This document shows, piece after piece, positions 35,992 to 39,390 of a stretch of 45,732 nucleotides of DNA. A program made the translations under genes and the position numbers. Each line of letters opens with the position of its first letter. Positions within the stretch are counted from its first letter, which is position 1. The notes under the pieces are model-generated. The model did no database searches. It was not told where the DNA came from and was given only the letters and a program-made list of their open reading frames with translations. The stretch comes from Acidobacteriota bacterium (lineage in GTDB: Bacteria > Acidobacteriota > Vicinamibacteria > Marinacidobacterales > Marinacidobacteraceae): positions 1-45,732 of the forward strand of contig VXNL01000027.1 of assembly GCA_009840635.1 (NCBI GenBank), in the 5' to 3' direction.

Positions 35992-37337
35992 GTATCAGCT
36001 CCTTGCTTGACAGAGTCATCGGAGGCCGGGCCGACGCGGAGCACCAACCCGTCCACCGCAAGCACCTTGACGCGCTCGCCAGCGTTCACCGGTGCTGCCG
36101 CGACAGCGTCCCAGAACTCGCCGTGGACGAACACCTTGCCCTCGCCACCCGGCGGAATATCGCTGCGCACGGTGGCCACCAGACCGATCATCCCTTCCCG
36201 CCCGGTGACCGCGGGACGCCGCTGGGCGCGGACCACCAGTTGACCGAGGAAGAACACCAGGACCACGAATACCAGGACGGACGGAACGACGAGTCCCCAG
36301 GTCAACGTCAGTGCGGGCGTGGGCAGGGATTGCTCCTCGAAGAAGAAAAGAAGACCGATCACCAGCGCCACCGCTCCCGACAGCCCCATTATGCCGAACG
36401 ACGGCGTGAGGGCCTCCGCGGTCAGGAGACCGATTCCAGCGAGCAGGAGCAGCACTCCGAGAAGACTGACCGGCAGGAAGTTGAGGCCGAAGGCGGCCAG
36501 CAGGAGCGCGATGCCTCCGAGAATGCCCGGGATGAGCAGGCCGGGGTTCGAGAACTCGAGGTAGAGCCCGAGCAGGCCGATCATCCCGAGCAGCACCGCC
36601 AGATTCGGGTTGGCGATCACCGAAAGAGCCCGGTCCCGGAAGCTCATCTCGGTCTCCACGACGAGCGCGTCCGCGGTATCGAGCGTGACCTCGGTGCCGT
36701 CGATCCGGGTCACCGTCCGGCCGTGGACGGCCGCCAGGAACGCCTCGGTGTTGTCGGCTACGAGGTCGATGAGACCGGCCTCGAGCGCTTCCGAGGCCGT
36801 CCAGCTCCGCGCCTCCGTGACGCCCTGCTCGGCGAGGGCGACGTCGCGCCCCCGGCGCTCGGCGATGGACCTCAGGTAGGCCGCGGCGTCGGATTCGACC
36901 TTCCGGCTCAGGGTCTCGGGCATCTCGCCGCCCGTTCCGGCGATGGGAGTCGCCGCGCCCATATTGGTCCCCGGGGCCATCCCCGAAACGTCGGCCGCCA
37001 GGGTGATCAGGTACCCGGCTGAGGCGGCCCGGGAGCCGGAGGGACCCACGAAGACGGCGACCGGCACCGCGCTGTTCAGGATCGCCTCGATGATTTCCCG
37101 CATCGCGGTGTCGAGGCCTCCCGGAGTGTCGAGGCGGATCAGGACCAACCCCGCGCCCGCCTCCTCCGCCGCCGAGATCGTCGTCAGCACCCGGCGGGCG
37201 GACACCGAGTGAATGATGTCCACCACGTCTACCTGATGGACGTCCGGGGCGGCCGCCGCGACGGATGGCGGTCCCGCGACGGCAAGGCAGAACCCGACGG
37301 CGGTGATGGCCCGGCGGCGCCCGTCTGACGTTCTCAA
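35988..37337 (-). CDS. NfeD-family membrane serine protease
   Basis: A 449-residue protein with a signal sequence. It has a ClpP-like serine protease domain (about 35-235), several membrane helices, and a C-terminal NfeD beta-barrel ([20 protein letters not shown] to the end). The catalytic Ser106 lies in [10 protein letters not shown] and the general-base Lys146 in [18 protein letters not shown]. The 40-residue gap matches the archaeal Ser97/Lys138 pair of PH1510. Such enzymes cleave stomatin-type partners, and the slipin is encoded next. TTG at 37337 overlaps the greA stop, so greA, nfeD and the slipin gene form one coupled operon. Confidence 0.92.
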
Positions 37338-37810
37338 GAGGAATCCCGGTCGTGAATGGTGCGGAGTTCGCGGATCTCGAACTCCCGCTCGCCGAGCGGC
37401 GTGTGCACGCTCACCTCATCTCCCACCCGGGCTCCCATGAGCGCCCTCCCGATCGGGGAGCCGGTGGACACCTTCCCCGCCGCGGCGTCCACGTCCTCGC
37501 TGACCACCAGCTCGTACCGGAACTCCTCGTCGGTGTCCAGGTCCATGACCGCGACCTGGCTGCCGAGCGATACCCGGTCCGCCGGAATGTTGTCCATGCT
37601 CACCATGGACAGGTCCGCGAGCCGGCCCTTGAGTTGCGCGAGCCGGACGGCGACGTAGTTCTGCCGCTCCTTCGCGGCTTCGTACTCCGCGTTTTCGGAC
37701 AGATCGCCGTGCTCGCGGGCCTCCTTGATCTGTTTGGGAAGCCGCAGGTGCAGCTCTTCCTCGAGTTCGCGCACTTCCGCCTCGAGGCGGGCGCGGAAGG
37801 ACAGTGTCAC
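37334..37810 (-). CDS. greA: transcription elongation factor GreA
   Basis: A 158-residue Gre factor that rescues backtracked RNA polymerase by stimulating cleavage of the transcript. The N-terminal coiled coil (FRARLEAEVRELEEELHLRL) leads to the GreA tip motif DLSENAEYEAAKERQ with the acidic residues that reach the active site. The C-terminal FKBP-like domain includes GSQVAVMDLDTDEEFRY and GSPIGRALMGARVGDEVSV. I chose GTG at 37810, which gives the standard length; longer frames add an Arg-rich non-GreA stretch. An extended -10 (TGCTATTCT) lies about 40 nt upstream. It heads the greA-nfeD-slipin operon. Confidence 0.95.
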   Translation of the reverse strand: MTLSFRARLEAEVRELEEELHLRLPKQIKEAREHGDLSENAEYEAAKERQNYVAVRLAQLKGRLADLSMVSMDNIPADRVSLGSQVAVMDLDTDEEFRYELVVSEDVDAAAGKVSTGSPIGRALMGARVGDEVSVHTPLGEREFEIRELRTIHDRDSS

Positions 37811-37932: not shown

Positions 37933-37993
37933 GCACGGCCAGCGGGCATGATCCGCACTCCGAACCAGATGGTGCAACCGAGGGAGGTTCTCC

Positions 37994-38623
37994 ATGCAAC
38001 ACATCAAGAGCCGCCGGTTGTCCGGCGTCCTGGCGCTCGGGCTCGCCGCCGGGCTGGCCGCGGTCGCGGGAACTCCTGACGCCGTGGCGCAGGACGTCTC
38101 GCTCAGGGTGGGAGACAAGGCGCCGATGTTCCCCAATCCGCTGCCATCCAGCGCGGGCGAGTCGCCGGGCGCGACGAAGCTCGATCTGAGCGCCGCCCTG
38201 GGAAAGAAGAACATCGTGCTGGCCTTCTACGTGGCCGACTGGACGGGTGGTTGAACGCTCCAGTTTTCGTCCTACAAGGACGACATCCAGAAGTTTCTGG
38301 ATGCGGACACCCAGGTCTTCGGCATCAGCGTGGACACCCCCTTCTCCCAGTGGAACTGGCTCCAGAACATGGGCGAGGAATCCGGAATGATGGTGGCGCC
38401 GGCCGCCGAGGGTGAGTTGCCTGGACTGGTTCTGCTGTCGGACCGCCAGGCGGAAGTGGTGGGCGCCTATGGCGTCACGCCGCTCGAGATCAACGGGGCG
38501 ACCTACGCGTCGCGCGCGACCTTCGTGATCGACCGTGAGGGCATCCTTCAGTACGTCAACTACGACTACCAGATCCGTGAGGACTACGAACCGCTGATGG
38601 AAGTCCTGGCCGGGCTCGAGTAA
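37994..38623 (+). CDS. exported peroxiredoxin with in-frame TGA at the peroxidatic cysteine (probable selenoprotein)
   Basis: A 209-residue AhpC/TSA-type peroxiredoxin if TGA 38252-38254 is read as selenocysteine 87. ATG at 37994 follows GGGAGG; the signal peptide ends DAVAQ, so the enzyme acts in the periplasm. The local motif ADWTGG-(TGA)-TLQF aligns with the family's T-x-x-C active site, Thr three residues before the Cys. The conserved Arg follows in YASRATFVIDREG. Downstream of the TGA the frame stays open and protein-like to the end (GISVDTPFSQWNWLQ, VVGAYGVTPLE, YDYQIREDYEP). The protein has no cysteine at all, hence no resolving Cys. Two hairpins lie 18 and 37 nt after the TGA. Alternative: a nonsense mutation or base error turning TGC or TGT into TGA. 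Confidence 0.85.
38267..38303 (+). promoter_or_regulatory. candidate bacterial SECIS: two tandem hairpins after the TGA
   Basis: Hairpin 1 is TCGTCC-TACAA-GGACGA (38267-38283), with its loop beginning 18 nt after the TGA. Hairpin 2 is CATCCAGA-AGTT-TCTGGATG (38284-38303), a perfect 8-bp stem with loop beginning 37 nt after the TGA and a G in the first two loop bases, a known bSECIS trait. Both loops fall in the 16-37 nt distance range reported for bacterial SECIS elements. Which one binds SelB cannot be decided by eye. Confidence 0.55.
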
Positions 38624-38655: not shown

Positions 38656-39390
38656 GTGTCGCCCGCGCCGCCGGCCCTCGTGGTCGCCATGCGCCACGGG
38701 CCGGCGAACGCCCTCGACCCCGTGCTGGTCCGAGAGCTGCGGGCGAGCCTCGATGAAGCGGAACAAAGCGGCCGGCCGCTGGTCCTGACCGGGAACGGCC
38801 GTTTCTTTTCGGCCGGCCTCGACCTCGCCGGACTGCCGGAGGACCGGGACGAAATGGGTGAGTTCGTTGACGCCTTCGACGAATTCGTCCGCCGGCTCTT
38901 CCTCTTCCCCTGCCCCACCGTCGCCGCGGTGAACGGCCACGCGGTGGCGGGCGGCGCGATCCTGGCGACCGCCTGCGACGTCCGCATCGGAGCCACCGGC
39001 GCCTACCGGATCGGCGTCTCCGAGGTCCAGCTCGGGGTCATCTTCCCGGCGGCGGCTTTCGAGGTCCTGCGGGCGGCCGTTCCGCCGGAGCGGACCGCGG
39101 AGGTTCTCCTGCGCGGCCGGCTCACGGGACCCGAGGAAGCCCTCGCGAACGGCTTCCTCCACGAACTGGCGGAGCCGGAGGCACTGCCGGCGCGGGCGGC
39201 GGAGCGGGCCGAAGAGCTGGGCGCCCTCCCTCGCGAGGCCTACGCCCACACCAAGCAGGAACTCCGCGCCGGGTTTGCCGAGCGGGCCCTGAGCCTGGCC
39301 GCCGAGAAGCGCGAGGGGTTCCTGGACACCTGGTTTTCGGAGGAATCGAAGGCGCGCCGCGCGGCGATCCTGGGCAGCAGGAAGAGGTAG
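38656..39390 (+). CDS. enoyl-CoA hydratase/isomerase (crotonase) family protein
   Basis: A 244-residue crotonase-fold protein acting on acyl-CoA thioesters. Oxyanion-hole segments are clear (GNGRFFSAGLDL and NGHAVAGGAILATACDVRIG), followed by GVSEVQLGVIFPAAAFEVL, where hydratases carry a catalytic Glu. The C-terminal helices (AEERALSLAAEKREGFLDTW-like) are of the usual kind. Only part of the hydratase catalytic pair is evident, so isomerase or hydrolase activity is equally possible. GTG at 38656 lies 32 bp after the peroxiredoxin stop, without a clear ribosome site. Confidence 0.85.
   Translation: MSPAPPALVVAMRHGPANALDPVLVRELRASLDEAEQSGRPLVLTGNGRFFSAGLDLAGLPEDRDEMGEFVDAFDEFVRRLFLFPCPTVAAVNGHAVAGGAILATACDVRIGATGAYRIGVSEVQLGVIFPAAAFEVLRAAVPPERTAEVLLRGRLTGPEEALANGFLHELAEPEALPARAAERAEELGALPREAYAHTKQELRAGFAERALSLAAEKREGFLDTWFSEESKARRAAILGSRKR

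Follow-up and report, generated by a model that had tools for sequence, protein, structure and literature searches.

What does a peroxiredoxin gene encode when the codon for its peroxidatic residue is TGA? The question is raised by a locus in a stretch of 45,732 nucleotides from an Acidobacteriota bacterium, the whole of which is referred to here as the window and which is contig 103 of a 3.58-Mb genome (92% complete). Translation of positions 37994-38623 with TGA read as selenocysteine (Sec, U) gives a single frame of 209 residues with zero Cys, in which the sole TGA is codon 87 (38252-38254), lying within the motif FYVADWTGGUT and followed by 122 sense codons and a TAA stop. This translation, together with an AhpC-TSA domain match that spans the TGA, bears out the initial annotation, made from the sequence alone, of a peroxiredoxin frame broken only at the peroxidatic codon at 38252; its statement that the frame continues downstream also stands, with 122 sense codons plus the stop in place of the 123 codons that it had counted. 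We put at roughly 0.8 the probability of the reading that we favor, in which the TGA almost certainly specifies Sec and the product is likely an exported, Cys-free peroxiredoxin, predicted to reduce peroxides by means of selenium and to depend on an external thiol for its regeneration. The gene and its surroundings are as follows.

37994..38623, plus strand: peroxiredoxin gene with in-frame TGA, 209 residues including Sec, then TAA (translation, Pfam match, orthologues).
37980..37987, plus strand: GAGGGAGG, an RBS-like stretch ahead of the ATG, read by eye.
37334..37810, minus strand: greA, divergent upstream neighbor, context only.
38656..39390, plus strand: enoyl-CoA hydratase family gene, downstream neighbor, context only.

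Ten strong orthologues (67 to 95% identity) were found among 14 genomes of the order, and with the window's gene they make up a clade of 11 members from 5 genera, 7 of the members belonging to one genus. In the same scan, G001 (66% complete) and G010 gave no match to the window gene, and G011 gave a weak match only, with TGC. G005 has, beside its strong match, a second weak match (L046, G005:C74; 34%) with one in-frame TGA. The greA and enoyl-CoA hydratase flanks were recognized at 9 of the 11 clade loci inspected, the exceptions being L066 and L067.

The residues on which the assignment to the peroxiredoxins turns are the following.

38231..38233, plus strand: Val80, at the Pro position of PxxxTxxC (alignment).
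38243..38245, plus strand: Thr84, the catalytic Thr of TxxU (alignment).
38252..38254, plus strand: TGA, predicted Sec87, at the peroxidatic position (translation, orthologues, homologues).
38267..38269, plus strand: Ser92, at Sec+5, where several Cys relatives (BCP/PrxQ-like) have a second Cys (alignment).
38513..38515, plus strand: Arg174, the conserved active-site Arg (invariant in 30 alignment rows).

Pfam AhpC-TSA (PF00578) matches residues 39-188 with 82 bits (cut-off 26; E 4.5e-23), and 104 PDB entries match the sequence at E 0.001 or better, the best being 2ywn, a peroxiredoxin. An AlphaFold2 model (30 rows) has a pLDDT of 87.6 and a pTM of 0.80, and its best fold matches in the PDB are Bcp4, AhpC2, and BCP, with the 1-Cys enzyme AhpE lower down. 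The Thr (or Ser) expected three residues before the peroxidatic residue and the later Arg, both of which the initial annotation had reported as kept, are present as Thr84 and Arg174; the third active-site feature, the Pro of PxxxT(S)xxC, is replaced by Val80. Superfamily placement holds despite Val80, on the strength of the domain score, the fold, and the other residues. Narrower assignments were rejected: PrxU (NF040737) scores 44.4 bits against a curated cut-off of 270 and Prx-SUH (NF045827) 20.6 bits against one of 298, and the Prx-like thiol:disulfide oxidoreductases (UxxC/UxxU) do not fit a protein that has U-T-L-Q and no Cys. PHROGs returned one weak match of unknown function (E 1.1e-6).

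With Val in place of the motif Pro, no Cys to serve as resolving residue, and flanking genes (greA and enoyl-CoA hydratase) neither of which is a redox partner or reductase gene, the product might be a selenoprotein that acts not as a peroxidase but as a peroxide sensor or thiol-redox relay. We regard this as rather improbable, as Thr84, Arg174, and the fold are all kept and 1-Cys peroxiredoxins exist (AhpE, entry 1xxu). The loss of the motif Pro could alter the activity of the predicted peroxidase.

The location of the enzyme is suggested by its N terminus.

37994..38089, plus strand: predicted Sec-type leader, residues 1-32 (hydrophobic leader in 11 of 11 members; cleavage after AVA is a by-eye guess).

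In a hydrophobicity scan complemented by inspection by eye, the N termini of all 11 members open with basic residues that lead into a hydrophobic stretch and, in most, an A-x-A-like end, in keeping with the Sec-type signal peptide originally proposed, and the protein is likely exported. A cytoplasmic protein that uses cytoplasmic thioredoxin is quite improbable: other peroxiredoxins are cytoplasmic, and the leader call comes from a simple scan and the eye, not from a signal-peptide predictor, but every member has the leader, and the domain begins after it, at residue 39.

Several lines of evidence bear on how the TGA is read. It stands at the same codon in all ten strong orthologues, such that 11 of the 14 order genomes, the window's included, each have one in-frame TGA there. 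Downstream of it, six comparisons within the genus give a dN/dS against the window of 0 to 0.12, and three wider ones give 0.18 to 0.30 (L033 left out); the part after the TGA is under purifying selection. Of the 193 class genomes searched, 17 gave a match at E 1e-14 or better, namely, the 11 clade members and six weaker matches, three of which have TGA inside. In a sample of 396 genomes of the phylum, 15 match at 1e-18; these are the window's own and 14 others at 40 to 46% identity, all 14 with one TGA inside, and at the 9 loci read (of 11 fetched) the TGA lies in FYV(L/F)AFTGGU in every case. Species genomes scanned with alignment A1 yielded at least 525 confirmed loci, of which 80 were kept. 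In these at least 80 related loci, TGA occupies the aligned codon in 51 and TGC or TGT in 29, proportions that are not those of nature, since the scan patterns favor this motif. The 80 include the ten window-clade orthologues, which account for ten of the 51 (L060-L069 and L024-L033 denote one set of ten genomes, counted once). The peroxidatic position thus carries an in-frame TGA with Cys homologues, as in Sec peroxiredoxins of the TxxU type.

The machinery for Sec decoding is complete in the window's genome, where selA (494 bits; cut-off 267.9), selB (297; 242), selD (248; 125), and tRNA-Sec (69.7; 47) all exceed their cut-offs and ARAGORN calls the last as tRNA-SeC(tca). tRNA-Sec is above cut-off in 13 of the 14 order genomes, the miss being G013 (75% complete), which still has the peroxiredoxin gene. 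The checks put forward in the initial annotation, for Sec machinery in the same genome and for Cys or TGA codons in homologues, therefore both came out in its favor. Because the TGA is conserved, the Sec machinery is complete, and Sec and Cys interchange among homologues, Sec decoding at the peroxidatic site is almost certain, and on this comparative evidence the gene is almost certainly that of a selenoprotein.

Reading of the TGA as another residue, such as Trp by readthrough or genetic code 4, has in its favor that 6 of 13 fetched database relatives (P0002-P0005, P0008, and P0013) have Trp at the site. These proteins, however, come from contigs of 0.9 to 1.9 kb and would fit a code-4 gene call, to judge from the proteins and not their DNA; moreover, TGA serves as an ordinary stop elsewhere (in orthologue L031 and in the DsbD N-terminal-domain gene of a cluster described below), the sense-codon loci have Cys at the site in 29 of 29 cases, and the Sec machinery is complete, so that recoding to Trp is very unlikely. 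An internal stop is the usual sign of a pseudogene, but a nonsense mutation or miscalled sense codon is next to impossible here, with the same TGA in 11 genomes of 5 genera and in 51 of at least 80 related loci and with a downstream dN/dS below 1, and conservation and dN/dS rule out a pseudogene, frameshift, or sequencing error for the clade.

On contig 18 of the same genome (L002:222-1842, minus strand) lies a cluster of three redox genes. The first encodes a Prx-like protein whose Sec is part of U-P-F-C, the second a DsbD N-terminal domain that stands by itself, and the third an OsmC-like protein whose frame has a TGA after ATGG; the second and third genes overlap by ATGA. The Prx-like and OsmC-like proteins are likely two further selenoproteins.

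Selenocysteine insertion at the TGA would call for an RNA element, and two hairpins are predicted immediately downstream in the window clade; with numbering from the T of TGA, they lie at 16-32 (loop ACA) and 33-52 (loop AGUU).

38267..38283, plus strand: hairpin 1, 7 bp, loop ACA without G, proposed spacer hairpin (folding).
38284..38303, plus strand: hairpin 2, best SECIS candidate, with an 8-bp stem and loop AGUU (unchanged across all 11 members; model as given in the available text of PMC13188914).

Columns 30-52 are invariant in all 11 members, 7 of which are of one genus, and the folding z scores of three members are -3.7, -2.8, and -3.2. In the five divergent members (window and L030-L033), the six hairpin-2 codons, which include the less used TTT and GAT, are identical in 6 of 6 cases, against 25 of 88 comparable codons elsewhere (Fisher p 0.0009, an optimistic value for a region picked after folding), and codons +1 to +16 are identical in 9 of 13 cases, against 22 of 81 elsewhere (p 0.008); codons +100 to +105 are likewise identical in 5 of 6. 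The bacterial SECIS model, as set out in the available text of PMC13188914, has a loop of 3 to 9 nt with G in its first two positions, a stem of 4 to 16 bp, a UGA-to-loop distance of 16 to 37 nt, and an energy of -7.5 or lower. Hairpin 2 lies within all of these bounds (AGUU, 8 bp, 37 nt, which is the limit, and -10.4 kcal/mol), and hairpin 1 lies at the usual distance from the TGA but fails the loop-G rule. Among the 897 TGA triplets of the window, a 7-bp G-loop hairpin lies in range of 13, and only one, TGA 38252, is followed by two tandem perfect stems of at least 7 bp. Rfam showed no SECIS family and nothing at gathering score, with four weak sub-gathering matches at E up to 10. The same rule finds a G-loop stem in each of the genome's two other selenoprotein candidates, at 21 nt in the Prx-like gene of L002, where the stem is not the minimum-energy fold, and at 19 nt in the other.

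A different hairpin is found in the wide family of Acidobacteria Sec peroxiredoxins (34 rows, 32 distinct), where a hairpin with a G-starting loop at +18 to +39 is paired in 94.1% of cells. One of its pairs changes from U-A to C-G in 5 of 32 sequences and another is changed on both sides in 3. Both sides of a pair changed together 8 times, where shuffles gave 1.4 and none of 500 reached 8; but as many as two pairs with such a change occurred in 156 of 500 shuffles, and RNAalifold alone recovered 4 pairs of the hairpin at -0.6 kcal/mol. For the window clade, our prediction, in line with the published SECIS rules, is that hairpin 2 would be the SelB site and hairpin 1 a shortener of the spacer.

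The absence of Cys, which the initial annotation had noted for the window protein, extends to all 11 members: the ten orthologues have no Cys from 55 residues before Sec to the end, and the leaders of all 11 are Cys-free as well. In a count that took in 46 of the 51 Sec forms (five read later were left out), exactly one Cys follows Sec in 34 of 34 members of the wide Acidobacteria family, 98 to 105 residues on, and none follows it in 10 window-clade members and two Zixibacteria forms. L070, the Cys relative with the shortest tree path to the clade, has its second Cys at +5, where the window clade has Ser. Because there is no Cys in the clade, its members look like 1-Sec enzymes, and since no resolving Cys is present in the chain, an outside thiol would have to finish the cycle. 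On contig 58 (L140), three genes in a row encode a CcdA-like membrane protein (DsbD_TM), a cytochrome c, and a CVPC-bearing redoxin that we call TlpA-like; this cluster, which is not adjacent to the peroxiredoxin gene, is our likeliest candidate for the electron donor.

Sec and the motif Pro are associated. Among the at least 80 related loci, 49 of the 51 Sec forms have Val or Ile at the Pro position of PxxxTxxC, whereas all 29 Cys forms have Pro there (44 of 46 and 26 of 26 in the first count, with 5 and 3 more read later). Pro is kept in two Zixibacteria Sec forms (L117 and L138) and, outside the 80 loci, in five class-level Sec forms (L036-L038, L040, and L041), a second class-level Sec peroxiredoxin group with FYPKAFTGGU or FFPKAFTAGU. 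L034, a relative of this second group, has TGC, possibly a recent Sec/Cys switch. In a tree of 83 rows, from which six near-copies (L060-L065) were dropped and in which the Sec and Pro columns were masked, 6 Sec/Cys changes are needed, 3 of them forced by starred branches; the window clade groups with Cys forms with a support of 92, not starred and with long branches flagged. The AU test does not reject a single clade of all 44 Val/Ile Sec forms (p 0.313), and Sec may have arisen once or twice in these forms. Parsimony gives 3 changes of Pro, and of three supported independent pairs one is concordant and two do not differ. The Sec-proline link is thus a strong association, not an absolute one, and perhaps reflects one or two events. 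The Sec peroxiredoxin of L131, a MAG titled Bacillota, falls inside the Acidobacteria clade, by transfer or mis-binning.

In the mechanism that we propose, SelB would deliver Sec-tRNA at the TGA under the direction of an RNA element within codons 92-104, of which hairpin 2 would be the SelB-binding part by the published model and hairpin 1 would shorten the effective spacing. After predicted export via the Sec pathway, Se- would attack peroxide to give Se-OH, as peroxiredoxin chemistry suggests; an outside thiol would form a selenenyl-sulfide, and a second thiol would release the enzyme, as in a 1-Cys-type cycle. The electrons may be supplied by a thioredoxin-like protein of the periplasm, which would in turn receive them from a CcdA-like membrane protein. 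Only tentatively do we go further and suggest a selenium-only, Cys-free periplasmic peroxidase made via a two-hairpin SECIS, in which hairpin 1 would fold the spacer so that SelB binds hairpin 2 at the far edge of its distance range, with the change from Cys to Sec accompanying, in most of the Acidobacteria Sec peroxiredoxins considered here, loss of a near-universal active-site Pro; taken as a whole, this is doubtful.

The closest relative among 5.8 billion proteins has 41% identity, and none of the orthologues turned up there as an intact protein, as would happen if gene calling ended at the TGA; the expectation that automatic annotation would split the gene fits this. The six Trp-bearing database peroxiredoxins carry FTGGW, and similar genome loci have TGA; they are probably code-4 calls of Sec codons, as far as can be read from their sequences. 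These 13 fetched proteins suggest that Acidobacteria Sec peroxiredoxins are partly miscalled, with Trp for Sec, or missing from protein databases.

PrxU of Eubacterium acidaminophilum is reportedly a TxxU-type Sec peroxiredoxin, the subject of a 2001 paper, and the TxxU kind of selenoperoxiredoxin is one known since 2001 to 2005. With TxxU proteins and PrxU the window protein shares the peroxiredoxin domain and, as predicted here, Sec as the peroxidatic residue of a TxxU motif; it differs by its leader, its lack of Cys, Val for the motif Pro, and a PrxU-model score far below the cut-off. AhpE and other 1-Cys peroxiredoxins (PDB 1xxu and 4x0x) share the fold, and catalysis without an in-chain resolving Cys would, by analogy, be alike, but AhpE has Cys where the window protein has predicted Sec. 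AhpE is reduced via mycothiol/mycoredoxin and is not known to have a leader. The best fold match is to BCP/PrxQ (Sulfolobus Bcp4, 3hjp; E 3.3e-15); at Sec+5, where L070 has Cys, the window protein has Ser92. The wide Acidobacteria Sec peroxiredoxins (FYVLAFTGGU; L072 and others) share the position of the Sec codon and mostly have Val or Ile for Pro, whereas the Cys at 98 to 105 residues after Sec and the G-loop hairpin 23 nt after the TGA are both lacking in the window clade. Sec at the peroxidatic site of peroxiredoxins, which the initial annotation had given as known, appears in the available text of PMC1088965, PMC1794560, and PMC13188914; the first and last of these describe TxxU proteins (43 Sargasso Sea genes; COG1225) in which a peroxiredoxin domain has Sec as its peroxidatic residue, and the last calls PxxxTxxU highly conserved. 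The portions available of PMC1794560 report 12 TxxU peroxiredoxin genes and 4 selenoproteins in Acidobacteria, and those of PMC12013277 report 3 known selenoprotein genes in an Acidobacteriota strain, in both cases without names, and members of the wide family may already be in print. Among the open-licence PMC papers listed on Sec peroxiredoxins, Acidobacteria selenoproteomes, SECIS elements, and 1-Cys forms, no title or abstract beginning describes this protein.

If our reading is true, it adds a Sec-only, Cys-free exported peroxidase to a known kind of selenoprotein. Three questions would follow: which partner restores a 1-Sec peroxidase in the periplasm, whether the motif proline is less needed when the chemistry is that of selenium, and whether folding of the UGA-to-SECIS spacer sets the effective SelB distance.
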